The notes under the pieces were generated by a model that did no database searches, was not told where the DNA came from, and was given only the letters and a program-made list of their open reading frames with translations. Shown in pieces: positions 37,596 to 60,332 of a stretch of DNA of 64,000 bases. The DNA comes from Bradyrhizobium manausense (GTDB lineage: Bacteria; Pseudomonadota; Alphaproteobacteria; Rhizobiales; Xanthobacteraceae), in contig NZ_LJYG01000034.1 in NCBI RefSeq assembly GCF_001440035.1, positions 21,913-85,912 on the forward strand. The letters run 5' to 3'. A program made the position numbers and the translations under genes. Numbering within the stretch: position 1 is the first letter of the stretch; every line of letters starts with the position of its first letter.

Positions 37596-37684
37596 AGAAT
37601 CACTTTCGCGAATCGCAGTCAAGCGTCTTTAACGACGGCGCCGTTTTGGCGAGCAGATTTTCTTTGCCCGCATGAGGCAAAGAC

Positions 37685-42551: not shown

Positions 42552-43313
42552 ATGAAGACCATTGTCATCAACAATCAAAAGGGCGGGGTCGGCAAGACGA
42601 CCCTTGCTGTGCATTTGGCTTGGTTCATGGCGGAAACCAATCTCCGCGTTCTCGTGATCGACGTTGATGCACAGAGCAATGCGTCAGACACGCTGAGGCA
42701 GTACGCCGGTTCAACGTTAGCCGCGGATTTGTTCAAGCCCGGGATACGGATCGCACCTCGGGAAGGCGAGGGCCTAACGCTTGCGCCGGCCGATAGCTCA
42801 CTGACTGACCTCGATCGCAGCAATGCAGCCGCCATAACGACTCTGCAAGAGAACCTCGCTATCGCGTCGGATCAGTTCGATGCCTGCGTCATCGATACGC
42901 CGCCATCACTTGGACTTCGCAGTGTCGGCTGTTTGGTTGCGGCGTCGCATGTGCTGGCCCCCATCTATCTGGAGGACTATTCGATCAAGGGCGTCAAGGG
43001 TCTGATGCAAACCTTTATCGGCGTGCAGAGGCGCTACGGCCGTCAGGATACGAAGTTCCTCGGGTTGCTGCCTTCGAACTTCAATACGAAATCGCCCCGT
43101 CAAAGGACGCATCTTGAGCAGCTGTTGCGCGAGGCTGGCAAATATGTGTTCCCGGGGCAGATCGTTGCAAGGGATGGCTACGCTGAGGCCGTCGCGGAAC
43201 GCCTGCCAGTCTGGAAGCTGAAGCGTCGCTCTGCGCAGGAGGCTGGTCGGGAAATCCGGGATGTTCTCGCCAAGATCGTCGCGCAGATGGACGAGACGGC
43301 ACATGGCGCTTGA
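42552..43313 (+). CDS. parA: ParA-family partition ATPase (second system)
   Basis: 253 residues from ATG 42552 (MKTIVINNQKGGVGKTTLAV). Deviant Walker A, VIDVDAQSNASDTL and CVIDTPPSLGLRSVGCLVAA. Lacks the N-terminal helix-turn-helix of RepA, so it is a Soj/type Ib-like ParA. Together with parB it forms a partition module separate from repABC. Overlaps parB by 11 bases. Confidence 0.9.
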   Translation: MKTIVINNQKGGVGKTTLAVHLAWFMAETNLRVLVIDVDAQSNASDTLRQYAGSTLAADLFKPGIRIAPREGEGLTLAPADSSLTDLDRSNAAAITTLQENLAIASDQFDACVIDTPPSLGLRSVGCLVAASHVLAPIYLEDYSIKGVKGLMQTFIGVQRRYGRQDTKFLGLLPSNFNTKSPRQRTHLEQLLREAGKYVFPGQIVARDGYAEAVAERLPVWKLKRRSAQEAGREIRDVLAKIVAQMDETAHGA

Positions 43314-44106
43314 TCTCAGCTTCAAGCAGCTCATCGACGCTGCGGAAGATGGTGCCGCCACAATCGGGCAACCGACTTGCATCTCGATCGACCGTATCGA
43401 CGAAGATCCGGACCAGCCCCGTCGCAGCTTCGAAAAACACAAGCTCGACGAGCTTACGCAATCAATCCTTCAGCATGGAGTGCTGCAACCGATCGTGCTG
43501 CGGCACGCGACCGAGGAAGGCCGGTACGTGATCGTCATGGGTGCGAGGCGGTATCGTGCTGCTAAGCGCGCCGGGCTCCGTGACATCCCGGCTTTCATTC
43601 ATGCGGCTGGTTCTGCGGATCGTTATGTTCAGATGATCGAGAATATTCAGCGTGATGACCTCAATGCCCCCGAAATCGCGGCGTTCATCGCGGAGCGCTT
43701 GGAGCAGGGTGATAACCAAGCTGACATCTCGCGCAAGCTCGGCAAGCCCAGGGACTGGGTGTCTCGCTACGCATCGGTTCAGAATATGCCGAAGTTCCTT
43801 CGCTCGAAGCTTGCCGGTTCATCAATCCGCGCTGTGTATGAGCTCTACCAGGCTTGGCGTGAGCAGCCCAATGCGATTGAGACTTTATGCGCAGCACAGG
43901 AAAGCTTCACAGACGCACACGCCCGTCAGCTAGCTCGCAAGATTCGCACGGAAGTCCGCGGCTCCGCTGCTGATAGCGAAGGGGCTGCTGGAGCTCAGCC
44001 AGCACGCCAGGTCGAACAGCAACCGACATCGCGACCCATAGAGATCGTGTTGCGGCGGCTGCGGGAAAACCCCGGAACTCTTCGGTCAATCGGAACGAGC
44101 GAATGA
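43303..44106 (+). CDS. parB: ParB-family DNA-binding protein (second system)
   Basis: 267 residues. ISIDRIDEDPDQPRRSFEKH, LTQSILQHGVLQPIVLRHAT, VIMGARRYRAAKRAGLRDIP and MIENIQRDDLNAPEIAAFIA form the ParB CTPase box; helix-turn-helix near NQADISRKLGKPRDWVSRYA. Related to KorB/ParB. Overlaps parA at its start and the next small gene (ATGA) at its stop. Confidence 0.92.
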   Translation: MALDLSFKQLIDAAEDGAATIGQPTCISIDRIDEDPDQPRRSFEKHKLDELTQSILQHGVLQPIVLRHATEEGRYVIVMGARRYRAAKRAGLRDIPAFIHAAGSADRYVQMIENIQRDDLNAPEIAAFIAERLEQGDNQADISRKLGKPRDWVSRYASVQNMPKFLRSKLAGSSIRAVYELYQAWREQPNAIETLCAAQESFTDAHARQLARKIRTEVRGSAADSEGAAGAQPARQVEQQPTSRPIEIVLRRLRENPGTLRSIGTSE

Positions 44107-44276
44107 GCGCATCGCTGACGATCAGAGTGCGCCACCAAGATCGTACGGGCTGTCTTTTGGTCGATCGGCTCGCGTCTCAAGGCTCACGACACGCAGTGCT
44201 GTTGGTCGATGGCGCAGACGAAGCGGAAGAGGTTCAAGCATCGACCGTCACAATCGAAGAGATCCTTTTCGCATGA
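44103..44276 (+). CDS. Small hypothetical protein after parB
   Basis: 57 residues: MSASLTIRVRHQDRTGCLLV and DRLASQGSRHAVLLVDGADE, ending VTIEEILFA. ATGA overlaps at both ends place it within the parAB operon. No family recognised. Confidence 0.55.
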   Translation: MSASLTIRVRHQDRTGCLLVDRLASQGSRHAVLLVDGADEAEEVQASTVTIEEILFA

Positions 44277-44644
44277 ACTTGGTCTTAGACAGTCTCCTCA
44301 GAAAAATTGCTGCGGTCGATGTGCCGGCGGAGCGGATTTCCCATCCGAAGGATGCCGCGTTAGCGCAGCAGCCGGAGGCCGAACGCGCCCCCCACAGCGC
44401 TGTAGAGAGGCCGGAGGCTGCTGGAAAGCCGCGGTCCACATGCTCGGTGCCCATATTGCCGATCTGGACGCCCAGCTTCCCTGGAGTAGAAGGATTAGGG
44501 GCGACGGCTGCGTCACTCCCGGAGGAATTCTCCGCATCGATCGCCGGCGCGGTTGGATCTCACCTGCGGCAACTCCCGAGCTTTGAATGCCGAGCCTGTT
44601 GGTGCGAACCAACATGGAGGGGCGGAAGGATTCGCACTTTCTAG
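44273..44644 (+). CDS. Hypothetical protein
   Basis: 123 residues (MNLVLDSLLRKIAAVDVPAE). Begins in an ATGA overlap with the small gene before it. The later half is low in recognisable structure and includes the palindrome at 44598-44613, so the 3' end may be degenerate. Confidence 0.4.
   Translation: MNLVLDSLLRKIAAVDVPAERISHPKDAALAQQPEAERAPHSAVERPEAAGKPRSTCSVPILPIWTPSFPGVEGLGATAASLPEEFSASIAGAVGSHLRQLPSFECRACWCEPTWRGGRIRTF
44598..44613. promoter_or_regulatory. Palindrome GTTGGT-GCGA-ACCAAC, candidate second parS
   Basis: Six-base perfect arms identical to those of the palindrome before parA; four-base centre. About 87 bases before the relaxase start. Confidence 0.55.
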
Positions 44645-44699
44645 TGCAGGATAGGCTTCGCGCCAGCGATGTATTACACCTCAATTAGGATTGGAGTGC

Positions 44700-45980
44700 A
44701 TGGCTCTGATCTCGCTTCGCGTCTCCGACGAAGTTGCGGCGGAGTTCTCAGCTTTTGCTGCTACTCAGGGCGGCAAGTCAGCGCTGCTGCGTCGTCTCAT
44801 TGCCGATGCACTGGCTGCACCAACGCCGCGCATCTTGGCGTTGCCCGTCGGACGGCAGAAAAAGGTGACGGTGCGATTTCGCGAGAGCGAGATGCGGCAG
44901 CTCGCAGAAGTCTCACATCAGCGGGGCATGACGCGAACCGGCTGGATTGTTGCACTGGTGCGCTCACGATTGGGGTCACCCGTGCAGCATTCCCCGAACG
45001 AGCATGACGCGCTTCGCGCGATCGTTCGCGAGCTCAACCGGATTGGCGGCAACATCAATCAGATCGCGCGTGCCGCAAACACCAGTGTGCTGCAGGGCAG
45101 GGCGGTTGAGCCCGATCTATCCGCAATTCAAGAGGCGAAATTGGTCATCGAAAGAGAGCTCGCGCAATTGCGTAGTGCGCTGCACGGCAACGCGGATGCG
45201 ACGCTGGCAGGTCGTTCGGGATTGAAAGATCTGCAGCAACGCTGGGAGGATGATGCCGGTCTCGACGACAAGCGCCGTCGCGATGGATCGCTCTCGGTCA
45301 ACATCATTCTGTCGATGCCGGCTGGCACCGATGCCGCCGCCGTCAAGGATTCAGCCCGGGCATTTGCCATCGACACGTTCGGCTACAACCATGACTACGT
45401 CTTCGTTCAGCACCTCGATGACAAACACCCCCACGTGCACCTGACCGTTCGGTCGCTGGGCCATGACGGCAAGCGCCTCAATCCGCGCAAGGCGGATCTT
45501 CAGGCTTGGCGAGAGCGGTTTGCTGGCGAACTCCGGCTTCGCGGGATCGCGGCGGAGGCAACGCCGCGGCGGACCCGAGGACGGGTACGAAAGGCCGATC
45601 GGGGAGCGGTCCTCGCTTTGCGCAAGCGAAAGATCACGCCCGATGTCGATCGGCTCGCCCGTAAGGAGGTGCTTTCGGAGGTGAGGGGCGGAAGGACTGC
45701 CAAACGTCCTTGGGACGAGCAGATTAAGTCGCGTCAGGACGCGATCAGGAGGCGATATCTCGAGTATGCAGCCGAGCTGCAGCGCTCTGGAGTGGCAGCA
45801 GATGAGGCGCTAGCGCGACAGATACGGCAATTCGTCAACGAAATGCCCGCCGTTGAAACTCGTCGGCATGGGCTGAAGAACGCGCTTTCGGAGCTTGCCA
45901 ATACGCGGGGACGCAGCGCGGAGCACAGAATCGAGGTAGAAGGGGGCGCCAAAGCACGAGGCAACGAGCGTACCAGGTAA
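44700..45980 (+). CDS. MobC-relaxase fusion (mobilisation protein)
   Basis: 426 residues from ATG 44700. First 60 residues resemble a ribbon-helix-helix (MALISLRVSDEVAAEFSAFA). Residues about 60-170 match MobC relaxosome proteins (RELNRIGGNINQIARAAN). Then a VirD2/MobA-type relaxase core with the three-His motif FVQHLDDKHPHVHLTVRSLG, and a charged tail with KRPWDEQIKSRQDAIRRRYL. The Tyr-bearing motif I that normally opens the relaxase domain is not obvious. It would nick oriT for transfer. Its stop lies two bases before the tRNA-Met fragment. Confidence 0.75.
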   Translation: MALISLRVSDEVAAEFSAFAATQGGKSALLRRLIADALAAPTPRILALPVGRQKKVTVRFRESEMRQLAEVSHQRGMTRTGWIVALVRSRLGSPVQHSPNEHDALRAIVRELNRIGGNINQIARAANTSVLQGRAVEPDLSAIQEAKLVIERELAQLRSALHGNADATLAGRSGLKDLQQRWEDDAGLDDKRRRDGSLSVNIILSMPAGTDAAAVKDSARAFAIDTFGYNHDYVFVQHLDDKHPHVHLTVRSLGHDGKRLNPRKADLQAWRERFAGELRLRGIAAEATPRRTRGRVRKADRGAVLALRKRKITPDVDRLARKEVLSEVRGGRTAKRPWDEQIKSRQDAIRRRYLEYAAELQRSGVAADEALARQIRQFVNEMPAVETRRHGLKNALSELANTRGRSAEHRIEVEGGAKARGNERTR

Positions 45981-45982
45981 CC

Positions 45983-46037
45983 GAGCGCAGGAATCATAAT
46001 CCTGGGGTCGGGGGTTCGAGTCCCTCCCCCGCTACCA
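45983..46037 (+). pseudogene. tRNA-Met(CAT) 3' fragment (attachment-site scar)
   Basis: GAGCGCAGGAATCATAATCC, then TGGGGTCGGGGGTTCGAGTC and CCTCCCCCGCTACCA. Anticodon arm CAGGA-ATCATAA-TCCTG with CAT, T arm and acceptor 3' strand with CCA. The 5' half is missing; the relaxase gene is directly upstream. It starts at the same GAGC position as the tRNA-Lys fragment. Confidence 0.85.
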
Positions 46038-46653
46038 ACGATCCCCCCGACATAGCCATGTTCGGAAACAGGGCCGGATTGCCGCACAGCGCGGCGAGCC
46101 GCCCCTTGATGTCGGTCTGCACGCTCCGGTCATCTTCGCTATTGGCCTTGGTTCCAGCCCCTCCCGGTCGGCTCGGGCTGGCATGCACGATGATCGCCGT
46201 CACCAACTCGCGGATGGTCGCAAACTCGGTCGGGGTGCCGTGCTTGAATTGGTCAGCCAACTCCAGGACGGCACGCTTGTAGCGGTCGAGCGCCTTCGGG
46301 TGTAGGGCGATCACGTCGTCGACTTCCTTAGCCGCCTCAAGTCGGCCGGCAAGGATTGTGCGCTCAGCTTCCAACTCGCGCATTCGAGGAGCTAACGGCC
46401 CGGCCGGCACCCCTTCCTTGGTGATCGCATCGACAGCGCGTCTGATCTCGCGGTCGATCTCTCCGAGCCGCCGTTCTATCCGGGCACGCTCGGCGTTCGC
46501 CTCCTGCTTCAGCCGTTTGCGCTCAGCGTTGTAGGCATCGACATACTTGGCAATCGTCTGCGGATGCGCGAGATGTTGGCGCAAACCTTTGATGGCCAAG
46601 CCTTCGATGTCATCGAGGTAGATGGGTCGGCCATTGTCGCAGGAGCCGACTGG
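45994..46653 (-). pseudogene. Large serine recombinase, C-terminal remnant
   Basis: Open from a TGA at 46656-46654. Starts SCDNGRPIYLDDIEGLAIKG, the end of the zinc ribbon of serine recombinases, then LRQHLAHPQTIAKYVDAYNA, a long coiled coil (RARIERRLGEIDREIRRAVD) and the C-terminal GRLAALCGNPALFPNM. The catalytic Ser domain is missing. The last residues (GEGLEPPTPGL) are read from the antisense strand of the tRNA-Met fragment, as is usual when such a recombinase abuts its tRNA target. Confidence 0.8.
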
Positions 46654-46730: not shown

Positions 46731-47345
46731 TCAGAACGTCGGCGGCGTGTTGATCCAGACAGCGCGCATTTGGGATTTTCCGGGGTTGCGATAAGCATGG
46801 GGAAGGTCCGAAGGAAAATAGAAGGAGTCACCTGCGCGTAGAAGATGCTTCTCGTTGTTGATGGTCAGCTCAAGTTGCCCTTCCACCACGAAGCCTACCT
46901 CTTCCCCTTTGTGCTGAAGAGTCCCGTTCGTATGCCCTCCGGGCTCAATGACAACGAGAAACCCCTCTAGCAATCGTCCCTCTGCCGAAGGCACGAGGAT
47001 TTCGGCCATCACACCCTCGCTGCCGGCAGCCTTCTTATGGCCGATGACTTTGCGCTGCTCCGGACGCATGATCGTCCAGGGCTCCGCCGCTTCGCTGCTG
47101 AGAAGCGTCGATACGCTGAGATCAAGAGCCTTGCACAGGCGGTGCAGCGTGGTGAGCGAAGGGATTGCGCGCTCGTTTTCGATCTTCGAAAGCATGCTTT
47201 CCGAACAACCGGCCGCGTCCGCTACGTCCTTCAGACGCATGTGATTGACAAGGCGCGCGTGCTTGAGTCGTGCGCCGATCCGCGGGGCGTCTGACCTGGG
47301 CTGCTCGACAGAGAGTTTCGAAGCGGCTGTCCGTTTTGGTTTCAA
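46731..47345 (-). CDS. XRE-cupin transcriptional regulator of the pyrimidine-like cluster
   Basis: 204 residues. N-terminal helix-turn-helix of the XRE class (LKDVADAAGCSESMLSKIEN), then a cupin sensor (VVIEPGGHTNGTLQHKGEEV, GDSFYFPSDLPHAYRNPG). Such proteins bind a metabolite in the cupin and repress or activate neighbouring catabolic genes. It diverges from the RutA-like gene; the gap (47346-47489) holds a 17-bp palindrome that recurs before two more units of the cluster. Confidence 0.88.
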   Translation of the reverse strand: MKPKRTAASKLSVEQPRSDAPRIGARLKHARLVNHMRLKDVADAAGCSESMLSKIENERAIPSLTTLHRLCKALDLSVSTLLSSEAAEPWTIMRPEQRKVIGHKKAAGSEGVMAEILVPSAEGRLLEGFLVVIEPGGHTNGTLQHKGEEVGFVVEGQLELTINNEKHLLRAGDSFYFPSDLPHAYRNPGKSQMRAVWINTPPTF

Positions 47346-47432
47346 AATCGATTCTCCACGTCAGCAGCATTAGCCAAGCGGGCGGTCAGGGGCAACGCCC
47401 ACTTTATCGTCATTGCTGCCTAATTTATCTGC

Positions 47433-47449
47433 ATGAAAGTAACTTGAAT
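47433..47449. promoter_or_regulatory. Operator copy A
   Basis: ATGAAAGT-A-ACTTGAAT. Right half identical to the perfect palindrome at 55757-55773; left half two changes. In the divergent region between the XRE-cupin regulator and the RutA-like gene, 41 bases before ATG 47490. Confidence 0.6.
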
Positions 47450-47489
47450 AGCATGCAATATGCTTCCGACGCTAACGACGGAGGTCCAC

Positions 47490-48575
47490 ATGGTGCGTCC
47501 ACTCGATCTGGGCATTTTTCTTCCCAACGCCAAAGGTGGAGCAATCATGGCCACGGGATCGCCTCCTCAATACTCGCCTAACTGGGAGCTGAACCGCAAA
47601 AACGCTCTACTGGCCGAGGAGGCCGGGTTCGAATTTCTGCTCTCCATGGTGAAGTGGCGCGGCTTCGGAGGTGAGACCAACCATTGGGACTACTCCCTCG
47701 AGTCGTTTTCCCTGATGGCGGCATGCGCTGCGGTCACCTCACGCATCCAACTTTACGCCTCGGTGGCAATCCCGACGATTCACCCTGGTGTCATCGCGAA
47801 GATGGCCTCGACCATAGACGACATCAGCAAGGGCCGCTTCGGCGTGAACATCGTTAGCGGCTGGAACAAGCTCGAGTATTCCCAGATGGGGCTCTGGCAG
47901 GGTGACGACTACTTCAAACGACGATACGAATATGCTGCTGAGTATCTTGAGTTGCTGCGTAGGCTTTGGACACAGGACCGGGTCACCCATCGCAGCGACT
48001 TTTTCCATTTCGACGACTGCAAGTCCTATCCGAAACCGTCGCGCGAGATTCCGGTCATCTGCGCAGGTCAGTCGGAGCGCGGCATCTCCTTTACGGCGCA
48101 ACATGCGGATTTTGGCTTCCTCGGCGGGCAGGACGATTCGCTCGCGGATCTTGGCCGGCTGAACGACAAGTTACAGGCGTCGGCCGCGCGTTTCGGACGC
48201 AAAGTGGGAGCATACGTCTTGCTCACGGTCATCGCGGAGGAGACCGACGAAGCGGCCTTCGCCAAGCGCGATCATTACATCCAGACTAGCGATAAGGCTG
48301 CAATGGCCGAGTGGGCGCGTGTCGCCGGCATGGATTTTTCGCGCGCGACCTATAAGGACCTTGCGGTCCAGACCTTCATGGCCATCCCCTATGTCGCCGG
48401 ATCGTATTCGACCGTTGCGCGCTATCTGGATGGGCTCGCGGAAAACGGCTTGGCGGGCGTCTGCTTCATATTCCCCGACTACGAGCACGATCTGAAACGT
48501 CTGATCGACAACGTCCTCCCGCTCATGAAGCATAAGCGCCCTGCCGAACAGCCTTCGCTGGCGCTTGTGCCATGA
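47490..48575 (+). CDS. Flavin-dependent monooxygenase, RutA-like (luciferase family)
   Basis: 361 residues from ATG 47490, chosen for GGAGG five bases upstream (frame open from 47460). Bacterial luciferase-like fold with DLGIFLPNAKGGAIMATGSP, FEFLLSMVKWRGFGGETNHW, KGRFGVNIVSGWNKLEYSQM and VICAGQSERGISFTAQHADF, all typical of pyrimidine monooxygenase RutA. RutA uses reduced FMN and O2 to cut the uracil ring between N3 and C4. No RutB/RutC/RutD genes are present, so the substrate may differ from uracil. ATGA overlap with the next gene. Confidence 0.88.
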   Translation: MVRPLDLGIFLPNAKGGAIMATGSPPQYSPNWELNRKNALLAEEAGFEFLLSMVKWRGFGGETNHWDYSLESFSLMAACAAVTSRIQLYASVAIPTIHPGVIAKMASTIDDISKGRFGVNIVSGWNKLEYSQMGLWQGDDYFKRRYEYAAEYLELLRRLWTQDRVTHRSDFFHFDDCKSYPKPSREIPVICAGQSERGISFTAQHADFGFLGGQDDSLADLGRLNDKLQASAARFGRKVGAYVLLTVIAEETDEAAFAKRDHYIQTSDKAAMAEWARVAGMDFSRATYKDLAVQTFMAIPYVAGSYSTVARYLDGLAENGLAGVCFIFPDYEHDLKRLIDNVLPLMKHKRPAEQPSLALVP

Positions 48576-49168
48576 TCTCGCGATCGATCGAGGGCGAAGC
48601 AATCGCTCAGCTCTTCACACGCGCTCGGACGCCTTCCGCCTGGAGTTCGACACCGATCGAAATGGCGACTCTCAAGCAACTCTACGAGCTCGCAAAGCTG
48701 GGCCCGACCAGCGCAAACTGCCAGCCGATGCGGCTCGCTTTCGTCACGACTTCTGCAGCCAAAGAACAACTGCTGCTGGCGTTGTCGAGAGGAAACGTAA
48801 AGAAGGCGGCGTCGGCCCCGGCGATCGCCATTGTTGCTCAGGACCGCAATTATCTGGACCGCCTGCCGGAGCTTTACCCCGTGGGTTACGACGCCCGCTC
48901 CTGGTTCAATACGTCCCCGGATGCGGTCGCGGGCCATGGGGAGCGCAACACCATGCTGCAGGCGGCCTATCTCATCATGGCTGCGCGTGCGCTCGGTATC
49001 GATTGCGGCCCGATGTCCGGCTTTGACCGGGATGCAATCAATAAGATCTTTTTCCCCGATCAGAGCTGGGACGCAAAGCTGCTGATCGGCCTGGGATTTG
49101 CCGCCGAGCCTGTACGCGAGCCGCGGAAGCCACGGCTCCGCGTCGAAGATGCTTGCCGCTTCATTTGA
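48572..49168 (+). CDS. Nitroreductase-family reductase, RutE-like
   Basis: 198 residues. Core motifs LYELAKLGPTSANCQPMRLA, FNTSPDAVAGHGERNTMLQA and ARALGIDCGPMSGFDRDAIN match RutE/HadB-type malonic semialdehyde reductases of the nitroreductase fold. They reduce a semialdehyde to a hydroxy acid with NAD(P)H and flavin. Coupled to the RutA-like gene by an ATGA overlap. Confidence 0.85.
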   Translation: MISRSIEGEAIAQLFTRARTPSAWSSTPIEMATLKQLYELAKLGPTSANCQPMRLAFVTTSAAKEQLLLALSRGNVKKAASAPAIAIVAQDRNYLDRLPELYPVGYDARSWFNTSPDAVAGHGERNTMLQAAYLIMAARALGIDCGPMSGFDRDAINKIFFPDQSWDAKLLIGLGFAAEPVREPRKPRLRVEDACRFI

Positions 49169-49183
49169 TCGAACGGAGCCGTT

Positions 49184-49948
49184 ATGACTATCGATTACAA
49201 AAGGCCTGCTTTCGGTTCCTTCATTGTCGAGCATGCGAGTGTTTCGACCGTCCGCATCGCCGCAAGCGCTGATGCAGATTTCCTTATCTTTGACGGCGAA
49301 CATGGATGCATGGAGTCCGCATCGCTGCGCAATGCAATTGCTATGTGCAATGCGCTTTCAATCGATGCTGTGGTTCGCGTCCCCGCTGTTGATAGCGAAT
49401 TGCTCTCACAGGGTCTGGACGCGGGTGCGCGCGGGATCCTCATCCCGAACGTGCAGTCTGCGGAAGAGGCGCAGCTCGCCGTCGCACGCGCCAAATTTCC
49501 TCCTGCCGGAAAGCGCGGGGCTGCTTTCGGTAGCGCTCAGGACGGCTACGCCGGCGGCAACGTCGCGAGCAAGATTGTCGAGGCGAACGCTCGTACCCTG
49601 ATCTTGTGCATGATCGAGAGCCCGCTCGGAATGGCGCAGGCCAATCGGATCGCGTCGATCGAAGGCGTGGACGGTTTGTGGTTCGGATACATTGATTTCA
49701 GCATCGCAGCATCCGTTCCGGGCCAACTTGAGCATGAATTAGTCACGGCGGCCCGTAAGCAAATAGCCGCGGCATGTCGCGATCACAGCAAGAGAGCATG
49801 CGTGATGGTTACCTCGGCGGCCGAGCTGTCGCGCTATGCGGAAGACGGCTTCGATGTGATCGCCTACGGATCCGACGCGTTCGTGATGAAGCAGGGGTTT
49901 TCGACCGGCATCGAGCTGTGTCGCAGACAGTTCGGCAATCTTCAATAG
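49184..49948 (+). CDS. HpcH/HpaI-family aldolase
   Basis: 254 residues. FGSFIVEHASVSTVRIAASA, FLIFDGEHGCM (base), GARGILIPNVQSAEEAQLAV and metal ligands in LCMIESPLGMAQ and WFGYIDFSI. Class II pyruvate-type aldolases of this family split or join 2-keto-3-hydroxy acids. The usual GxxDL reads GYIDF, a small deviation near the second metal ligand. Fifteen bases after the RutE-like gene, in the same operon. Confidence 0.85.
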   Translation: MTIDYKRPAFGSFIVEHASVSTVRIAASADADFLIFDGEHGCMESASLRNAIAMCNALSIDAVVRVPAVDSELLSQGLDAGARGILIPNVQSAEEAQLAVARAKFPPAGKRGAAFGSAQDGYAGGNVASKIVEANARTLILCMIESPLGMAQANRIASIEGVDGLWFGYIDFSIAASVPGQLEHELVTAARKQIAAACRDHSKRACVMVTSAAELSRYAEDGFDVIAYGSDAFVMKQGFSTGIELCRRQFGNLQ

Positions 49949-49956
49949 TGAATTGA

Positions 49957-50982
49957 ATGAGGACAATGATGAGCATGAGCGATTCCGTACCCACCATCGA
50001 CGTTTCGCGATTCGTCCACGGGAGCCCATCAGAACGCGACGCGGTCGTCCGCCAGGTTGCCGAAACCTGCGAGCGTATCGGTTTCTTTCTCATCAAAGGG
50101 CACGGCGTTCCCGACGATCTCATCGCTCGGACATATGCCTCCGCACGCTCGTTCTTCGACCTCCCCAAGGAGGAAAAGCTTGAGGTAAAGCGAATCAGGC
50201 CGGAAGTCAGCCGGGGCTACAACTCGCTCGCAGACCAGAGCCTGTCGCGAAGCATGGGTATTCTCTCGCCGCCCGATCTACAGGAAAGCTTCAATATTGG
50301 GCCGCTGAATGCCGGCTCTGATCCCTACTTTACCGAGGGCTTTGGAGTGGTCCACTTCGCGCCCAATCAATGGCCCAAGCGTCCGAGCGACTTCCGCGCG
50401 AACGCGACCGAGTACTACAGTGCGATGGAAAAGGTGTCGTGGCAATTGATGCGGATCTTCGCGCTCTCGCTCGGGCTTGAGGAGAGCTTTTTCGATGGGA
50501 AGATCGACAAGCACGTCAGCAGCCTGCGCTTCATCAACTATCCCGATCAGCCGTTGCCCCCAGCCGAAGGCCAGAAGCGCGCCGGCGAGCACACCGATTA
50601 CGGCGCTCTCACCATCCTGAAGGTCGAGGACGCGCCGGGTGGGCTGCAAGTGCGCGACCGAGCGGGAAATTGGATCGATATCGGCTACCTGCCGGGCACC
50701 TTTGTCGTCAACATCGGCGATCTCATGATGCAATGGACCAATGATCGCTGGATTTCCACCCTGCACAGGGTGATGAACCCGCCGCTGGACGCAGCAACGA
50801 GCCGTCGCATCTCTTTGGTGTTCTTTCATCAGCCGAACTACGACGCCGAAGTCGCGTGCCTACCCACCTGTGCGTCGGCCGAGAACCCGGCCAAGTATCC
50901 CGCGACCACGTCGGGTGCGCATTGGCGCGGGAAGAACCAGGCCGCGAGGAACGTCAAGCCGGCTGAGGAGAAGGTTGCCTGA
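49957..50982 (+). CDS. 2-oxoglutarate/Fe(II) oxygenase (isopenicillin N synthase-like)
   Basis: 341 residues; start may be any of several clustered ATGs (49957, 49966, 49969 or 49975). N-terminal DIOX_N part (VPTIDVSRF, FFLIKGHGVPDDLIARTYAS). Iron site H-x-D in GEHTDYGALTILKVEDAPGG and the distal His in TLHRVMNPP; 2-oxoglutarate Arg in SRRISLVFFHQPN. Such enzymes hydroxylate or demethylate small molecules, including nucleobases (thymine 7-hydroxylase). Eight bases after the aldolase gene. Confidence 0.88.
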   Translation: MRTMMSMSDSVPTIDVSRFVHGSPSERDAVVRQVAETCERIGFFLIKGHGVPDDLIARTYASARSFFDLPKEEKLEVKRIRPEVSRGYNSLADQSLSRSMGILSPPDLQESFNIGPLNAGSDPYFTEGFGVVHFAPNQWPKRPSDFRANATEYYSAMEKVSWQLMRIFALSLGLEESFFDGKIDKHVSSLRFINYPDQPLPPAEGQKRAGEHTDYGALTILKVEDAPGGLQVRDRAGNWIDIGYLPGTFVVNIGDLMMQWTNDRWISTLHRVMNPPLDAATSRRISLVFFHQPNYDAEVACLPTCASAENPAKYPATTSGAHWRGKNQAARNVKPAEEKVA

Positions 50983-51000
50983 TAAAGCGACTTTCTGGGC

Positions 51001-51017
51001 TGGAAAGTGACTTGAAA
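51001..51017. promoter_or_regulatory. Operator copy B
   Basis: TGGAAAGT-G-ACTTGAAA, the same core AAGT-N-ACTTGAA as copies A and C. A weaker half-like word AAAGCGACTTT lies just before (50984-50994). Upstream of the BMP transporter genes. Confidence 0.55.
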
Positions 51018-51133
51018 ATCAGCGGTCGAACGAAATTCGACTGCTGGGACTCAAAATCATTCGAAATATCAACACGGTCGGTCGTGGCATCGTTTTTGCG
51101 ATGTCATCGATCGCGCAACATCCGGAGGCGGAA

Positions 51134-52150
51134 ATGGCAGGTGACAGACGTTCGATCTCATTAACGCGCCGCAGTGCTCTCGTGACGCTCGGCTCCATCG
51201 CGGGATCTGCGTTACTCAATCGTTCCTCATATGCGGCCGACAAGCTGAAGGTCGCAGGCGTCTATTCGGTTCCCGTGGATCAACAATGGGCAAGTCGGCT
51301 GCACATTGCTCTAAAGGCAGCGGAGGCGAGGGGCGATATCGTATACAGCTGGTCGGAGAGCGTAGCGAACACCGACATGGAGCGGACGATCCGCGACTGG
51401 GCGGAGAAGAAGCCGCAACTCGTCATCGCCGATGCGTTCGCAATAGAGCGCAACGCTAGGAAAGTCGCCGCCGACTATCCCAAAACGGCCTTCCTGATGG
51501 GATCCAGCTTCGGCCCAACCGATCCGAACTACTCAGTCTTCGACAATTTCATTCAGGATGCGTCTTATCTGACCGGCATCATCGCTGGCGGAATGTCGAA
51601 ATCGGGAGTGATCGGCATGGTCGGCGGCTATCCCATTCCGGAAGTCAACCGCCTGATGAACGCGTTCATGGAAGGCGTTCGCGAGGTCAATCCAAAGGCG
51701 AAGTTCTTCATAAGCTTCATCGGGAGCTGGTTTGATCCCCCCAAGGCCAAGGAAGCGGCCTACGCCCAGATCGAGCGCGGCGCGGACCTGCTCTATGCGG
51801 AACGTTTCGGCGTCTCGGATGCCGCCAAGGAGAAAGGCGTGTTGACCATCGGAAACCTCGTCAATACGCAGCCGCAATATCCGAATACAGTCGTGGTATC
51901 GGCGCTGTGGCACATGGAGCCGACGATAGACAAGGTCATCGCCAAGCTGAAGGAAGGATCCTACAAAGCTGAGGATTACGGCTCATTCAGCATGATGAAA
52001 TTTGGCGGTGCTTCGGTCTCCCCGCTCGGCACTTTCGAAGGCAAGGTGCCAAGCGAGATCATGGCGAAAGTTGCCGATCGGGAAAAGGCCATTCGCGATG
52101 GAAGCTTCGTAGTGAAGGTCAACGATACCGAGCCGAAGTCGACGGTGTGA
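51134..52150 (+). CDS. BMP-family periplasmic binding protein (nucleoside-type importer)
   Basis: 338 residues from ATG 51134 (GGAGG upstream); ATG 51101 is an alternative. Tat-like signal LTRRSALVTLGSIAGSALL. PF02608 (BMP/Med) features: DKLKVAGVYSVPVDQQWASR, DAFAIERNARKVAADYPKTA, FQDASYLTGIIAGGMSKSG-like region and IGMVGGYPIPEVNRLMNAFM. BMP proteins bind nucleosides or purine-like compounds. GTGA overlap with the ATPase gene. Confidence 0.9.
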   Translation: MAGDRRSISLTRRSALVTLGSIAGSALLNRSSYAADKLKVAGVYSVPVDQQWASRLHIALKAAEARGDIVYSWSESVANTDMERTIRDWAEKKPQLVIADAFAIERNARKVAADYPKTAFLMGSSFGPTDPNYSVFDNFIQDASYLTGIIAGGMSKSGVIGMVGGYPIPEVNRLMNAFMEGVREVNPKAKFFISFIGSWFDPPKAKEAAYAQIERGADLLYAERFGVSDAAKEKGVLTIGNLVNTQPQYPNTVVVSALWHMEPTIDKVIAKLKEGSYKAEDYGSFSMMKFGGASVSPLGTFEGKVPSEIMAKVADREKAIRDGSFVVKVNDTEPKSTV

Positions 52151-53703
52151 ACGTCCAGGTCGCTCCGGTGGAAGGATCAGTCGGCATCCGCAGACCTGCT
52201 CTGCGTATCTCCAGTGTTTGCAAGCGATTTGGTTCGTTAATTGCGAACGATGATGTGAGCTTTACCCTGGAGGCAGGGCAGGTTCTCGCGTTGCTCGGCG
52301 AGAACGGCGCCGGCAAGACGACCCTGATGAACATCCTGTTCGGCCACTACGTAGCAGACAGCGGCGCAATTGAGATCGGGGGTGCGTCTCTGTCGCCGGG
52401 CTCACCGCAGGCGGCGCTACGAGCCGGGATCGGAATGGTGCATCAGCACTTCGCACTGGCGGACAACCTGAGCGTTGCCGAGAACATCATCATCGGGACC
52501 GAATCTCTCCTCCTGCCCTGGCATCGTGCGAAGGCGAAGGAGAAGATCCTTGATATCGCGCGTCGGTACGGCCTTGCTTTGGATCCCGATGCGCTGGTGC
52601 GGGATATTTCGGTCGGCGAACGCCAGCGCGTTGAAATCGTCAAAGCGCTCTATCGCGATGCACGCATCCTGGTCCTGGACGAGCCGACGGCTGTCCTGAC
52701 GCCACAGGAAGCCGAGGCACTGTTCGCGACGTTGCGCATCCTGGTCTCCAACGGCGTTGCGGTAATTTTCATCAGTCATAAGCTTCGCGAAGTCCTGTCA
52801 GTCGCCGACAAAATTATCGTCATGCGACAGGGGAAAGTAGTGGCAGAGCGTCGCGCGTCAGAAACCAGCCGGGAAGAGCTCGCGGAGCTGATGGTGGGCC
52901 GCAAGGTTGCCTTTCCGGATCGAAAGCCGGTCAGCGTTGGTCCTGCCGTGCTACGGCTCGACGGTATCGTTCTCCGTCAAGGCGGCAATCGCCCCCATGT
53001 CCTCGACGGCGTGAACCTCGAAGTGAGGCAGCACGAGATTCTGGGAATCGCTGGCATCGCCGGTAACGGTCAGGCAGCGTTGGCCGATATTGCATGCGGA
53101 GTTCTCGCACCCTCCGAAGGGTTGATCCATCTTTCCGGTGACCCTGTCCGGTCCGACCCGTCAGAGTTCGTCAAGCGCGGCGTTGCCCGAATCCCGGAAG
53201 ACCGACACGCCACGGGTCTGATCCCTGATATGTCTGTGTGGGAGAATGTCGTGGCCGAGCGGTACCGCTCGGAAGCCTTTGCGGTGGCCGGGCTGCAGCG
53301 CGTCGGAGCTGCGCGGAAATACGCCGAGCTGGTCATCGCCCAGTTCGATGTGCGCGGTGCAGCTCCCAACACCTCCGCCAAGCAGCTCTCAGGCGGGAAC
53401 ATGCAGAAGCTGATCCTTGGACGTACCCTGCTGCAAGATCCCGGCGTGATCGTGGCGACTCAGCCGACACGCGGCCTGGACATCGGTGCGGTCGCTTATG
53501 TGCATCGCAAGCTCCTGGAGGCGCGAGATCGTGGTGCCGGCATTCTCTTGATCAGCGAAGATATCGATGAGCTGTTCTCGCTCTCCGATCGAATCGCGGT
53601 GATGTTCCGCGGCTCGCTCAGCAGTCCGGTGCGCACTGAGACGCTCAGTCTGCAGGAGCTGGGATTGAGGATGGCCGGCCAAAACTCTACGGGAGGGCGA
53701 TAG
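52147..53703 (+). CDS. ABC transporter ATPase, two-domain (YufO/BmpA partner type)
   Basis: 518 residues from GTG 52147. First nucleotide-binding domain has Walker A GENGAGKTTLMN, signature VGERQRVEIVKAL and Walker B ILVLDEPTAVL. Second domain has a degenerate Walker A (GIAGIAGNGQAAL) and signature LSGGNMQKLILGRTL with the Glu of the Walker B changed (VIVATQPTRGLD), as usual for the sugar/nucleoside class. Energises uptake through the two permeases. Overlaps its neighbours by one to four bases. Confidence 0.92.
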   Translation: MNVQVAPVEGSVGIRRPALRISSVCKRFGSLIANDDVSFTLEAGQVLALLGENGAGKTTLMNILFGHYVADSGAIEIGGASLSPGSPQAALRAGIGMVHQHFALADNLSVAENIIIGTESLLLPWHRAKAKEKILDIARRYGLALDPDALVRDISVGERQRVEIVKALYRDARILVLDEPTAVLTPQEAEALFATLRILVSNGVAVIFISHKLREVLSVADKIIVMRQGKVVAERRASETSREELAELMVGRKVAFPDRKPVSVGPAVLRLDGIVLRQGGNRPHVLDGVNLEVRQHEILGIAGIAGNGQAALADIACGVLAPSEGLIHLSGDPVRSDPSEFVKRGVARIPEDRHATGLIPDMSVWENVVAERYRSEAFAVAGLQRVGAARKYAELVIAQFDVRGAAPNTSAKQLSGGNMQKLILGRTLLQDPGVIVATQPTRGLDIGAVAYVHRKLLEARDRGAGILLISEDIDELFSLSDRIAVMFRGSLSSPVRTETLSLQELGLRMAGQNSTGGR

Positions 53704-54767
53704 TGCGAGTAGAAAGGCGCGATTTCAGCCCCCTTGCCGTCAGGCTCGCGGCCCCCGGGGTGGCGGTGCTTGCAAGCCTGTTGATCTGCTCCTCACTCAT
53801 CAAGGCGGCCGGCGCTCCCGTGCTCTGGGCTTATTGGACCATGCTTGTGGGCGCGGTGGGAAGCCTGAACTCTGTCTCCGAGACGTTAACCCGCGCAACA
53901 CCCTTGATCTTCACGGGCCTGTCGGTCGCCGTCGCGTTTCGTGCGCGGATATGGAATATCGGCGCCGAAGGCCAATTATACGCAGGCGCCCTTGCAACGG
54001 TCCTCGTGGCCGAGGAAGGCGGGCGGATTGCAGCGGTTGTGCCCCATTGGGCGCTCCCCATCGTGGCCGCTGGCGCTGCCTTCGCGCTCGGTGCGGCGCT
54101 TCTGCTCGGTCCGGTCGTCTTGAAAGTCAAGCTCGGGGTCGACGAGGTAGTAACGACCCTCCTATCGAATTTCGTGATGCTGCTCTTTGTGTCCTACCTG
54201 CTCGACGGGCCTTTCAAGGATCCAATGTCGATGGGATGGCCGCAGACGCCGCCGGTTGATGCGACCGTCAGCTTGCGTCATCTGCTTGGCGGGACCGCCA
54301 GGCTGCACGCGGGCTTTTTGTTCGCGTTGCTCGGGGCGGCATTGCTCTGGCTTTTCAACGTGCGCAGTGTTTGGGGATATGAGATGCGCGCGGTCGGACT
54401 CAGCCTAAACGGCGCGCGTTTCGCCGGCATGCCCGTAACCTCTGTGCTGCTTCGGGTAGCCGTATTGTCCGGCGGCATCGCCGGAATCGCCGGCTTCAAT
54501 GAAATCGCAGGGGTTAAGGGCTACCTGACGCTCGATATGTCGCCGGGCTTTGGCTATAGCGGCATCGTCGTTGCGATGCTGGCCCAGTTGCATCCCGTAG
54601 GCGTCGTGATCTCCGCGGTGTTTGTCGCGGCGATTTTCGTCGGAGCCGATGCCATGAGCCGCGCAGTCGCGGTTCCGAACTACATTGCCGACGTGATCGT
54701 GTCGGTCAGTCTGCTCACGATGCTGGTCGCTATGATGCTAACGCGGTACATGATCCGCCATGAGTAG
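53703..54767 (+). CDS. ABC transporter permease (nucleoside type, YufP-like)
   Basis: 354 residues from GTG 53703. BPD_transp_2 fold with FTGLSVAVAFRARIWNIGAE and GQLYAGALATV (the cytosolic EAA-like GAEGQ motif), and KLGVDEVVTTLLSNFVMLLF. Channel subunit of the BMP-type importer. Start overlaps the ATPase stop by one base. Confidence 0.92.
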   Translation: MRVERRDFSPLAVRLAAPGVAVLASLLICSSLIKAAGAPVLWAYWTMLVGAVGSLNSVSETLTRATPLIFTGLSVAVAFRARIWNIGAEGQLYAGALATVLVAEEGGRIAAVVPHWALPIVAAGAAFALGAALLLGPVVLKVKLGVDEVVTTLLSNFVMLLFVSYLLDGPFKDPMSMGWPQTPPVDATVSLRHLLGGTARLHAGFLFALLGAALLWLFNVRSVWGYEMRAVGLSLNGARFAGMPVTSVLLRVAVLSGGIAGIAGFNEIAGVKGYLTLDMSPGFGYSGIVVAMLAQLHPVGVVISAVFVAAIFVGADAMSRAVAVPNYIADVIVSVSLLTMLVAMMLTRYMIRHE

Positions 54768-55698
54768 CACGCTCGATGTCGTCCTCACGGCGAGCTTCTG
54801 GGCTGCGACGCTGCGGATTTGTGCGCCGCTGCTGTTTGGGACCCTCGGCGAGTTGATATGCGAGCGTGCCGGCGTGCTCAACCTCGGGATCGAGGGCATC
54901 ATGACGGCCGGAGCACTGAGCGGCTGGTTGACCGTCTACTACGGAGCGGATCTTTGGACCGGAGTCTGCGTGGCCGCACTTGTAGGCGCAATCTTCGGCC
55001 TCTTGCACGGCTTCCTCACCGTGCCCCTGGGGCTTTCCCAGCATGTGACCGGTATCGGAATATCCCTGCTGGGAGCATCGTTGAGCTATTTCAGCTTCAG
55101 ATTGCTGATTGCTTCAACCGCAACGCCGACCATCAAGCCATTCAGCGCCGTTCGGGTGCCGCTCCTGGCCGACATTCCTCTCGTCGGACCGGTGCTCTTC
55201 GAGCAATCGCCACTCGTCTACCTCGCTTTCTCGCTGGCCATAGCCGTTTCCTACATCTTGTACAGGACACCGCTTGGGCTTGCGGTCAGGATGGTCGGTG
55301 AAAATGCGATGGCGGCCGACGCGCAAGGCGTGAGTGTGGTTGGCATCCGTATGGCAGCGGTCGTCGTCGGCTCGGCAATCATGGCAATCGGAGGGGCCTT
55401 CCTGACGTTATCGGCATTCAACGCCTTCTTCGTGAATCTCGTTAACGGGAGAGGGTGGATCTGCATTGCCCTCGTCGTCTTCTCCTCATGGAAGCCAGCC
55501 AGGGCGATCGTTGCATCGCTGTTCTTTGCATCGCTTGAAGCACTGCAGATCCGGCTCCAGCAGGGCTCTGGCGGATTGCCCTACCAATTCTTCCTGATGC
55601 TGCCTTACCTCCTGAGCATCGTCGCTCTCATCGCTGTCGCTCGCAGGGTCTCAGGCCCGCAATCGTTGATGGTGCCGTTCAGGAGAGGAGAGCGGTAG
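54760..55698 (+). CDS. ABC transporter permease (nucleoside type, YufQ-like)
   Basis: 312 residues. Starts with ATLRICAPLLFGTLGELICE and RAGVLNLGIEGIMTAGAL, the family motif, with GLSQHVTGIGISLLGASLSY later. Second channel subunit; overlaps the first by eight bases. Last gene of the importer operon. Confidence 0.92.
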   Translation: MSSTLDVVLTASFWAATLRICAPLLFGTLGELICERAGVLNLGIEGIMTAGALSGWLTVYYGADLWTGVCVAALVGAIFGLLHGFLTVPLGLSQHVTGIGISLLGASLSYFSFRLLIASTATPTIKPFSAVRVPLLADIPLVGPVLFEQSPLVYLAFSLAIAVSYILYRTPLGLAVRMVGENAMAADAQGVSVVGIRMAAVVVGSAIMAIGGAFLTLSAFNAFFVNLVNGRGWICIALVVFSSWKPARAIVASLFFASLEALQIRLQQGSGGLPYQFFLMLPYLLSIVALIAVARRVSGPQSLMVPFRRGER

Positions 55699-55756
55699 CC
55701 GTCCGCCGCCAGCATGCCTAAAAAGTGAACTTGTCCAGCAGCGAGAGGTCTGCCAT

Positions 55757-55773
55757 ATTCAAGTCACTTGAAT
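55757..55773. promoter_or_regulatory. Operator copy C (perfect palindrome)
   Basis: ATTCAAGT-C-ACTTGAAT, perfect 8-bp arms. Twenty bases before the RutF-like start, so a bound protein would block the promoter or ribosome entry. Confidence 0.7.
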
Positions 55774-55793
55774 AAAATTCAGGAGACAAATCC

Positions 55794-56294
55794 TTGAGCA
55801 GTGCGACCGGGATCAGAAGCGCTCTTAGCAACTATGCGACGGGCGTGACGGTGATCACCGCACGTGACGGCGATGGTCTCTGCGGCCTCACAGCGAACTC
55901 TTTCACATCCGTGTCCCTCAGCCCACCGCTGCTGTTGTTTTGTATCGGCCGCGCGCGAGCCTCGTTCGAGGTTTTTAGAAGATCGGAGACATTCTCCGTC
56001 AACGTGCTCAGCGCCACCCAGAAACATCTCTCCGACCGCTTCGCGTCATCCGGAAAGGAAAAGTGGCGTGGGATCGAATACGCCGAGGACGAATTTGGAA
56101 ACGCGATATTCCCCGGTTCAGCTGCGACCTTTAGTTGCCGCAAAAAAGAAATGGTTGATGCAGCCGATCACATGATCGTGCTGGGTGAAGTCTTGGGATT
56201 CCGGGAGGATCGGAAGCACAGTCCCCTGGTGTATTGCCGGAGCAGCTATTGCCTTCCCGTTGATCTTGATCGAGAGCCGCGCCCCGCCGCATGA
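55794..56294 (+). CDS. Flavin reductase, RutF/HpaC-like
   Basis: 166 residues from a TTG with AGGAG eight bases upstream. Flavin-reductase-like fold: ALSNYATGVTVITARDGDGL, CGLTANSFTSVSLSPPLLLF and FSVNVLSATQKHLSDRFASS. Supplies reduced FMN to a monooxygenase, here most likely the RutA-like enzyme 8 kb upstream, which has no reductase of its own nearby. Perfect operator palindrome just upstream. Confidence 0.9.
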   Translation: MSSATGIRSALSNYATGVTVITARDGDGLCGLTANSFTSVSLSPPLLLFCIGRARASFEVFRRSETFSVNVLSATQKHLSDRFASSGKEKWRGIEYAEDEFGNAIFPGSAATFSCRKKEMVDAADHMIVLGEVLGFREDRKHSPLVYCRSSYCLPVDLDREPRPAA

Positions 56295-56344
56295 TAGCGA
56301 CCTTCAGGAAGGCATTGGCTTTCTAGAGAATAGGCAGCTAACCC

Positions 56345-57778
56345 ATGGAACAGATTCCCGCGAGCTATCTGTTCGGAGAGAACGCGCGTGTTCTGGAAAA
56401 TGCATCGCTCGCGATCCGCGACGGTAAGATCAATCGAATCGACAATGGAGAGTCGTCTCCCGCCGGGCGTTCGCTCATCATTCCCGCTCTGATCAATGCT
56501 CACGACCACGCTCGTCCGCGGCTCTCGTCGTTCGGCGCGATCGACATGCCGCTCGAAAGCTGGATTCTGCGTTCAGCCTTGGCGACGCCACCCGATCCAT
56601 ATCTAGTCGCCGTGTCCGCTCTGGGCCGTTCTGCGAGGGCGGGCTGCGGGGGCATGATGATTCACTACACTCGCCCCAGCGGCAAATTGAGCATGGTCGA
56701 GGAAGCGCAAGCGATCGCGTGTGCTGCCAAAGATGTCGGCCTTCGGCTCGCCTTCGCCCCAGCGCTCCGCGACCAGAATCCGGTCGTCTATGGAGACACG
56801 GAGGAGTTCCTGAATCGGCTGCCGGTCGACGCCGCCGCGGTTGTCCGCGAGATGTTTGTCAAGCCGCCGGCCGAGCCCGGGCAGCTGATCACGATGACCG
56901 AGGAGGTCGCCGCCGCCATTGAGGGACCGACAGTGGACGTCCAATTTGGACCGGCCGGAGTCCAATGGTGCTCGCGCGAGCTGCTCGAAGGCGTTGCCGA
57001 GGCTTCCGCACTTACAGGACGACGCATCCACATGCATCTTCTGGAAACTCCCTACCAGCGCCAGTGGGCAGATCGGGAGTTTCCAGGTGGGATCGTAGAG
57101 TATTTGAGGGATATCGGGCTCCTGTCACCCCGATTGACCTTGGCTCATTGCGTTCATGTCACGCCTGCAGAACAGGAGATCATTGCGGCCAGCGGGAGCC
57201 GTATCGTCACAAACTTCAGCTCAAATCTGCACCTCAGCTCAGGCATCGCTCCGATCGGCCGCGCCTATCGTTGTGGCTGTCCTATCTGCGTCGGGGTCGA
57301 CGGGCTTGCGCTCGATGAAGACGACGACATCCTGCGGGAGATGCGGCTTGTCAGGCTCGCTCACAGAGGGGACGGATTCCCGACCAACTGGACCGCGGCG
57401 GAATTTCTTTCGCACGTCGTGACGAATGGCCGTGCCGCAATCGGTGCGCCGGGTGACGGTCTGCTGAAGGCCGGAGCTCCGGCAGATTTCACCGTTCTTG
57501 ATTACGAACTGCTTGATCATGATCGCCTGGTTGAAGTTGATCCAATTGGCCTGCTTTTTAGTCGGGGAAATAGCACCTTGGTGAAGGATGTTGTCGTGGC
57601 GGGTCGTGTTGTGGTGAAGAATGGTGGCCTAGTTGGTATCAATCTTGACCAAGTCGAGCACGAACTTAGGAGCCATTATCGAGCGAACATCTCCCGCAGC
57701 AGTCGGCTGCAGGATTGTTGGCCAACTCTCGAAGCAGAAACCGCTCGATGGTTTTTGAACTTTCAAAGCTGTGGGTAG
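56345..57778 (+). CDS. Amidohydrolase, TRZ/ATZ deaminase family
   Basis: 477 residues. Metal site of the family: PALINAHDHARPRL (HxH), HMHLLETPYQR, LTLAHCVHVTP and the Asp in CVGVDGLALDEDDD. The family includes guanine, cytosine and S-adenosylhomocysteine deaminases and triazine hydrolases. NAHDHARP replaces the commoner NTHxH. Follows the RutF-like gene by 50 bases. Likely hydrolyses an amino or ring substituent of the imported heterocycle before RutA-type cleavage. Confidence 0.87.
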   Translation: MEQIPASYLFGENARVLENASLAIRDGKINRIDNGESSPAGRSLIIPALINAHDHARPRLSSFGAIDMPLESWILRSALATPPDPYLVAVSALGRSARAGCGGMMIHYTRPSGKLSMVEEAQAIACAAKDVGLRLAFAPALRDQNPVVYGDTEEFLNRLPVDAAAVVREMFVKPPAEPGQLITMTEEVAAAIEGPTVDVQFGPAGVQWCSRELLEGVAEASALTGRRIHMHLLETPYQRQWADREFPGGIVEYLRDIGLLSPRLTLAHCVHVTPAEQEIIAASGSRIVTNFSSNLHLSSGIAPIGRAYRCGCPICVGVDGLALDEDDDILREMRLVRLAHRGDGFPTNWTAAEFLSHVVTNGRAAIGAPGDGLLKAGAPADFTVLDYELLDHDRLVEVDPIGLLFSRGNSTLVKDVVVAGRVVVKNGGLVGINLDQVEHELRSHYRANISRSSRLQDCWPTLEAETARWFLNFQSCG

Positions 57779-60275: not shown

Positions 60276-60332
60276 CGCGAATCTGAGCCGGTGTGCGCCG
60301 CTGCACGCCGGCCGCTTGGGAGTTCCCGGATC

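Follow-up and report, generated by a model that had tools for sequence, protein, structure and literature searches.

Uracil and thymine are the substrates described for RutA, the flavin monooxygenase of the Rut pathway (E. coli rutABCDEFG), in PMC7662398 (PMC numbers refer here and below to excerpts of the papers concerned). RutA-type flavin enzymes cleave amide bonds by an unusual N5-peroxide chemistry. Other systems with related parts are the fungal thymine-7-hydroxylase (NcT7H) and the purine-binding BMP proteins AtzT and Brucella 3s99. In AtzT, guanine is bound at 110 nM and lies between Y45 and W194, contacted by S97, the F98 backbone, E165, N218 and N220; for 3s99, adenine was the ligand modelled (PMC6834077). 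In a 64,000-nt stretch of DNA from Bradyrhizobium manausense, called the window below, eleven genes at 46731-57778 combine elements of these systems. Like the Rut pathway, they include a RutA-type monooxygenase, a flavin reductase and a RutE-type semialdehyde reductase. Unlike in the Rut pathway, the RutA-type protein lies outside the clade of RutB/C-linked RutAs, the reductase is not RutF, and a 2-oxoglutarate-dependent (2OG) oxygenase, an aldolase, a deaminase, an ABC importer and an XRE-cupin regulator are added. Comparison with the E. coli operon detected no RutB, RutC, RutD, RutG or RutR among the eleven genes, the first four having been noted as absent in a preliminary description of the window. 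The genes form a real, conserved and rare operon, probably a new one for heterocycle degradation that is related to Rut. The explanation preferred here is that the operon is catabolic and serves a planar N-heterocycle, with an amino-/oxo-pyrimidine as the most likely kind, by RutA-type chemistry but not by the Rut pathway. Taken as a whole, including that the operon is mobile and rarely held, this explanation is given a probability of roughly 0.57. Full-text searches of open-licence PMC papers revealed no paper on such an operon.

Ten of the genes are located on the forward strand and packed tightly, neighbours being separated by -8 to 118 bp, and they run in the order RutA-like, RutE-like, HpcH/HpaI aldolase, 2OG oxygenase, BMP protein, ATPase, two permeases, flavin reductase and amidohydrolase; the XRE-cupin regulator gene is divergent. 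All families named previously are present, at matching positions, according to Pfam and equivalog profiles. Comparison of neighbourhoods revealed that the set is conserved together. In Bradyrhizobium sp. LTSP849 (locus L012) all eleven genes are collinear at 69-91% protein identity, RutE at 78%, and a metagenome-assembled genome (MAG) of the Hyphomicrobiales (L013), assigned to the same genus by a genome search, harbors a shorter version consisting of regulator, RutA, RutE, aldolase, oxygenase and flavin reductase at 52-84% identity. Genes for an NMT1-type binding protein, an ATPase and a permease are found on the other side of the regulator in the MAG. Since the MAG cluster contains neither the deaminase nor the BMP importer, these are placed outside the smallest conserved core. 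DNA matches between the window and LTSP849 extend over 46733-56272 and 56474-57607, with none outside, and because they stop at the cluster edges the cluster is regarded as one unit set in differing surroundings. Ratios of non-synonymous to synonymous substitution rates (dN/dS) against LTSP849 were 0.032-0.127 over ten genes, RutE being left out; with dS values of 1.0-2.5, near saturation, these ratios are rough. Against the MAG, for which RutE was left out as well, dS was not computable for RutA and the aldolase. On the basis of collinearity and low dN/dS, a chance assembly or decayed genes were rejected.

The gene for the RutA-type flavin (LLM) monooxygenase is located at 47460-48575 (+), although its start may be the ATG at 47490, the start point of the MAG homolog. 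Its product obtained 350.4 bits with TIGR03612, below the RutA equivalog cut-off of 498.3, and its closest solved structures are RutA structures (309 bits). Identity to the RutB/C-linked homologs collected is 38-44%. A scan of a named genome collection with this protein, using exact patterns and thus reaching close relatives only, yielded four loci, the two mentioned above and two from one order, Rhodospirillales bacterium URHD0017 (L014) and Reyranella soli (L015). There, RutA is 76% and the regulator 45-46% identical, and within 10 kb these two are the only ones of the eleven genes found, besides weak matches to other ABC/LLM genes. In a tree of 47 proteins, built after removal of 13 rows that duplicated genes already included under another locus id, the five window-type RutAs form one clade (100/99). 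It falls outside a 38-row clade (100/99) containing all 29 RutB/C-linked RutAs and nine others; because long branches were flagged, only the separateness of the clades is used. Of the 175 columns with at least 90% constancy among the 29 RutB/C-linked proteins, 99 are identical in all five window-type proteins.

For flavin-N5-peroxide group C monooxygenases, a dioxygen motif F/L-T/S-NxV-A-F/L/Y has been given (PMC8234197), and residues of the O2 pocket of RutA are named in PMC10005588, PMC7662398 and PMC8234197. The equivalents of L65, T105 (as Ser), N134-I-V136 and F224 are kept in all five window-type proteins, as is W139; the Ala position of the motif could not be located and was excluded. 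E292 is constant in neither group. Near the pocket, the window-type proteins show coordinated changes: L70 to W, E78 to N, F79 to H and Q140 to N. This pattern reads as the same oxygen chemistry combined with a substrate pocket that would differ from that of the RutB/C-linked RutAs. The operon also suggests that some RutA relatives that fall outside the RutB/C-linked clade do not act on uracil. Because it unites a divergent RutA, an oxygenase and an aldolase, it could uncover a new substrate for this chemistry and a pyrimidine-like pathway with a new end.

As the monooxygenase belongs to the LLM family, a sulfonate or sulfone utilisation operon with an SsuD/SfnG-like enzyme was considered as well, an alkanesulfonate having been named beforehand as a substrate that would speak against nucleobase catabolism. 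The family scores did not favour it: SfnG reached 149.5 of 382.95 bits and alkanesulfonate monooxygenase 88.7 of 518.2 bits (equivalogs TIGR04021/TIGR03565), compared with the 350.4 bits for RutA. The NMT1-type binding protein next to the MAG cluster matches the SsuA family below threshold (65.7 of 163.5 bits), which is a point for sulfonates and one against a heterocycle. Considering the kept O2 pocket, and since the deaminase and the base-binding-like importer would be left unexplained, this function appears highly improbable.

Neighbours of RutA homologs were also inspected. Near both L014 and L015 RutAs, a PuuE-like protein (414.1 of 424.6 bits in L014, by eye in L015), another LLM monooxygenase and an arylformamidase-like cyclase (57.2 of 223 bits) are encoded, and L015 contains in addition a caprolactamase-alpha-like protein (549.7 of 1000 bits). 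Two non-Rut RutA homologs of the genus adjoin isochorismatases (one tested), a CE4 deacetylase and an amidohydrolase, and in genome G668 two RutA homologs lack clear heterocycle neighbours. As a separate observation, a genome of the same order (L054, 5708-10351) contains four RutA homologs in tandem, with a flavin reductase after them and a RutB-like match within the same locus.

Downstream of the RutA-like gene, the nitroreductase-family protein encoded at 48572-49168 (+) passes the equivalog for malonic semialdehyde reductase, RutE (NF003768, 244.5 bits, cut-off 152). The flavin reductase (55794-56294, +; PF01613, 133.9 bits), which is also part of the short version in the MAG, is of the HpaC/FerA type, with matches of 143.9 and 133.2 bits, both under their cut-offs, and 75 bits against the RutF equivalog TIGR03615 (cut-off 254.75). 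It probably serves as the electron donor for the RutA-type enzyme. Of the RutA/RutE/RutF-like trio proposed in the preliminary description, RutE stands, RutA stands as a type below its cut-off, and the label RutF-like proved inexact.

A RutE that passes its cut-off could be expected in a rearranged uracil/thymine Rut pathway, in which RutB, RutC and RutD functions are contributed from elsewhere and oxygenase, aldolase and deaminase extend the range to thymine or cytosine. A RutB query against the whole host genome yielded five places with 30-36% identity, one with an in-frame stop; this whole-genome search was made for RutB alone, and RutC, RutD and RutG were sought among the eleven genes. Moreover, a Rut pathway without RutC still supplies E. 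coli with enough nitrogen (PMC8113886). E. coli PreA as a query gave no match in the host genome, which shows nothing because there was no positive control. These points are countered by the low identity of the RutA-type protein to RutB/C-linked RutAs, its position outside the clade holding all 29 of them, the 99 of 175 shared columns, and an operon without RutB, RutG and RutR. A rearranged Rut pathway is considered unlikely.

The 2OG/Fe(II) oxygenase (49957-50982, +; PF14226 and PF03171) is IPNS/T7H-like, with matches to 9ovh (175 bits) and to the fungal thymine dioxygenase 5c3p (160 bits). Like NcT7H, it keeps the metal and 2OG ligands, with equivalents of H214, D216, H271, R286, S288 and Y194 present as well as those of R190, Y217 and F292. 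Unlike in NcT7H, N87 is replaced by Ser and N294 by Gln, and the placement of E122 is uncertain. As a guide to thymine specificity, this residue mapping is not diagnostic. Because R190, Y217 and F292 are also present in 9ovh, which is named as an EFE, these residues give the family and the metal site, not thymine as the substrate.

In a tree of 13 oxygenases, the group of the window protein and a BMP-linked group were not shown to be sisters. Four relatives of 53-55% identity (in G200, G178, G090 and on a Tistrella plasmid) all adjoin genes of BMP-type transporters, the binding protein being called in three of them (the gene calls passed over the BMP protein in L120). A VOC protein is encoded in all four loci (one run against families). 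Two of the four contain an isochorismatase, the tested one matching BiuH best and RutB more weakly, both sub-threshold, and one contains a cytosine-deaminase-like amidohydrolase (370.9 of 438 bits). Two relatives in Reyranella soli (51% and 49%) adjoin a TRZ-type deaminase, a TadA-like deaminase and a Rid protein. Those in G032 (46%) and G077 (43%) are close to NMT1-like binding proteins and, respectively, to a cyclic-amidohydrolase-like and an M20 carbamoylase-like protein, all recognised by eye.

The importer is specified by four genes spanning 51101-55698, all on the forward strand: a BMP-family substrate-binding protein (51101-52150; PF02608), an ATPase (52147-53703; PF00005 in two stretches), permease 1 (53703-54767; PF02653) and permease 2 (54760-55698; NF047928 182.8 bits, cut-off of 465 not reached). 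AtzT (6pi5, 109 bits) and Brucella 3s99 (103 bits) are the closest solved relatives of the binding protein. In the printed alignments, the numbering of the AtzT paper was taken as the chain position plus five. The BMP protein fits AtzT at W210 (W194 in AtzT), E181 (E165), F113 and S155 (T139), and its W63 aligns with a Trp of 3s99, but four other contacts of AtzT are replaced, as given further below. The alignment favours a flat ring over a sugar, and a ring other than guanine. A BMP importer had been expected and is present; its designation as a nucleoside importer was too specific and was not borne out, because the best solved relative binds bases.

The last gene (56345-57778, +) specifies a TRZ/ATZ-type amidohydrolase, a probable aminohydrolase (PF01979, 104.3 bits, cut-off 25). 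It keeps HDH, HLLE, H and D motifs, which we take to form the metal site; the motif check left out the homolog of L080. No equivalog was matched, 8-oxoguanine deaminase NF006055 giving 128 bits with a cut-off of 532. Within the genus, homologs with E values of 1e-60 or better are present in 124 of 265 genomes, of which 119, including the host and LTSP849, hold one with at least 56% identity; in the other five the homologs are weaker. Scoring was limited to the few best candidates of each genome. Five such loci (L115-L119) were read. All have an ABC ATPase and a GntR-type regulator close by, and four of the five an NMT1-type binding protein (by eye) and a cytosine-deaminase-like amidohydrolase, one binding protein (L115) and one amidohydrolase (L119) having been passed over by the gene calls. 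When one of each was run against families, the amidohydrolase reached at best 256.9 of 408 bits and NMT1 was above cut-off. The amidohydrolases of this locus type (56-63% identity) belong to the same deaminase subfamily as the window protein and have the same metal-site motifs, but no RutA, RutE, aldolase or 2OG oxygenase homolog was called in the five loci. A locus of this kind with a 62% identical deaminase also exists elsewhere in the MAG genome. More distant homologs (46-49%) on two Azospirillum plasmids and one Skermanella plasmid are accompanied by ABC genes, SDR, allantoinase/dihydroorotase-type enzymes and acetamidase/formamidase, in Skermanella also by a ring-opening amidohydrolase.

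Degradation of an amino-/oxo-pyrimidine-like heterocycle is supported because the gene set is conserved with sharp edges, the O2-pocket residues are kept, RutE passes its cut-off, the BMP protein is nearest to guanine-binding AtzT among solved structures, and some relatives of the oxygenase, the deaminase and RutA have heterocycle-type neighbours. The pathway class proposed previously, a nucleobase-like N-heterocycle, gained from these neighbours, the AtzT match, the kept pocket residues and the conserved set, and the earlier interpretation as a whole is partly supported. In the route envisaged, the BMP transporter would import an amino-substituted base, which the TRZ/ATZ enzyme would deaminate to the lactam, and the oxygenase would hydroxylate a carbon substituent or an N-methyl group. 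Oxidative cleavage of the N-C(=O) bond by RutA with the flavin reductase would follow. Once ammonia is lost, the aldolase would split the carbon skeleton, giving a semialdehyde (plus formaldehyde or pyruvate), and RutE would reduce the semialdehyde, most simply malonic semialdehyde to 3-hydroxypropionate.

The HpcH/HpaI class II aldolase (49184-49948, +; PF03328, 110.7 bits, cut-off 25) stays below every equivalog cut-off, with 115.4 of 393 bits at best. Aligned with its best solved structure, 1dxe, it has equivalents of H50, R75, E153 and D179, presumably the catalytic residues in that numbering, and the GPSD segment reads GYID. Two schemes ending at RutE can be drawn for this step. The enzyme could release formaldehyde from 2-(hydroxymethyl)malonic semialdehyde derived from a C5-substituted pyrimidine, or it could split a 4-hydroxy-2-oxo acid from a pyridine-type or larger ring into pyruvate and a semialdehyde.

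The first scheme corresponds to degradation of 5-substituted pyrimidines such as thymine, 5-methylcytosine or a hydroxymethyl aminopyrimidine. The oxygenase would make or use a C5-hydroxymethyl group as the fungal T7H does, RutA would open the ring, and the aldolase would take the one-carbon branch off as formaldehyde, leaving malonic semialdehyde for RutE. Such a route would avoid 2-methyl-3-hydroxypropionate, the product of the E. coli Rut pathway from thymine, but it appears quite unlikely. The pyrimidine of thiamin (HMP) is a possibility as the substrate, considered because of the NMT1 transporter and acetamidase neighbours; a literature search among open-licence PMC papers revealed nothing on point. 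The second scheme would apply to a pyridine, a purine-derived or a man-made heterocycle, for example of the nicotinate or triazine type. Family and residues of the aldolase fit ordinary HpaI chemistry in this case, and a T7H-like protein, HxnY, is part of a fungal nicotinate cluster, its function being unassigned by the authors (PMC9304392). AtzT, too, has a much higher affinity for guanine, ammeline and hydroxyatrazine than for pyrimidines (PMC6834077). On the other hand, malonic semialdehyde reductase is the best family for RutE, and the described RutA substrates are the two pyrimidines mentioned at the outset. A heterocycle of this second group is regarded as doubtful.

Several observations weigh against the pyrimidine-like substrate preferred here. 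Ordinary HpaI chemistry requires a 4-hydroxy-2-oxo acid, which is not obtained from a plain uracil ring, and the cluster contains no RutB-like hydrolase for the opened ring. The MAG cluster lacks the BMP transporter and the deaminase, and the oxygenase residues shared with 9ovh count here as well. Unlike AtzT, the BMP protein has A112, L185, E234 and F236 in place of S97, N169, N218 and N220, and Y45 aligns with Ala, W63 being one column before it. AtzT itself binds thymine, cytosine and uracil at just 620-1600 uM (PMC6834077), and the comparison of the BMP proteins does not favour a plain pyrimidine as the ligand. Some neighbourhoods have no heterocycle theme. The aldolase relatives read on plasmids (33-37%) are found with sugar-type ABC genes and with dehydrogenases, one of them a semialdehyde dehydrogenase, and without heterocycle genes. 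The one Rhizobium plasmid oxygenase relative read (R. bangladeshense, 41%) has unrelated neighbours, the Rhizobium deaminase homolog (39%) has others without heterocycle context, and the RutA homolog of G569 is likewise located among genes without such a theme. Finally, most family matches of neighbours fall below curated cut-offs.

The regulator gene (46731-47345, -) specifies an XRE-family protein with a C-terminal cupin domain (PF01381 and PF07883 above cut-off), and its homologs at the same place are 91% (LTSP849) and 83% (MAG) identical. In the divergent intergenic region of 114 bp, two copies of a direct repeat, TTTATCnnCAT, are present 21 bp apart (47403-47434). The repeat occurs in all three clusters, without mismatch in the window and LTSP849 and with two mismatches in the MAG, and forms a conserved block in the three-way alignment. 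It was found in none of 100 shuffles at up to two mismatches, the pattern itself having been drawn from this site, and was not detected in L014 and L015 at up to three mismatches. The repeat is no more than a candidate operator.

Searches for RutA covered at most about 1,200 of 97,973 genomes in overlapping samples, in addition to the scan of the named collection. A window-type RutA was present in three of 265 genomes of the genus, the host included, in the host alone in a sample of 397 genomes of the order, and in two of 76 genomes of the order of Reyranella. In a phylum sample of 398 genomes, there was no match above 45% identity apart from G000. The host genome has a size of 9.1 Mb. The window contains repABC-type replication/partition genes (35180-38917), with RepB and RepC families above cut-off, indicating that the stretch is probably a plasmid or an integrated plasmid. 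A block with a ParA/ParB pair and a MobC/NikA/relaxase-like protein (42471-45980) is located immediately upstream of the cluster. Of nine other short stretches taken from the host genome, eight have a higher G+C content (0.629-0.658) than the window (0.605); the ninth has 0.597. This setting fits an accessory replicon or an integrated element and the patchy distribution.

Other features of the window were recorded in passing. The region at 45994-46599 resembles the end of a serine recombinase by eye and has no Pfam match. Two known defence systems adjoin each other at 22894-27900 (-), a Gabija pair GajB/GajA (691.6 and 795 bits) and Shedu SduA (561 bits). A RibBA-type protein with DHBP synthase and GTP cyclohydrolase II domains is encoded at 7063-8145, on what is probably an accessory replicon, and a P-type ATPase with a C-terminal hemerythrin domain in a single open reading frame at 2198-4495 (-). 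At 60291-62480, one open reading frame combines an ABC permease with a strictosidine-synthase/SMP-30-like domain, an unusual fusion beside ribose-type ABC genes.

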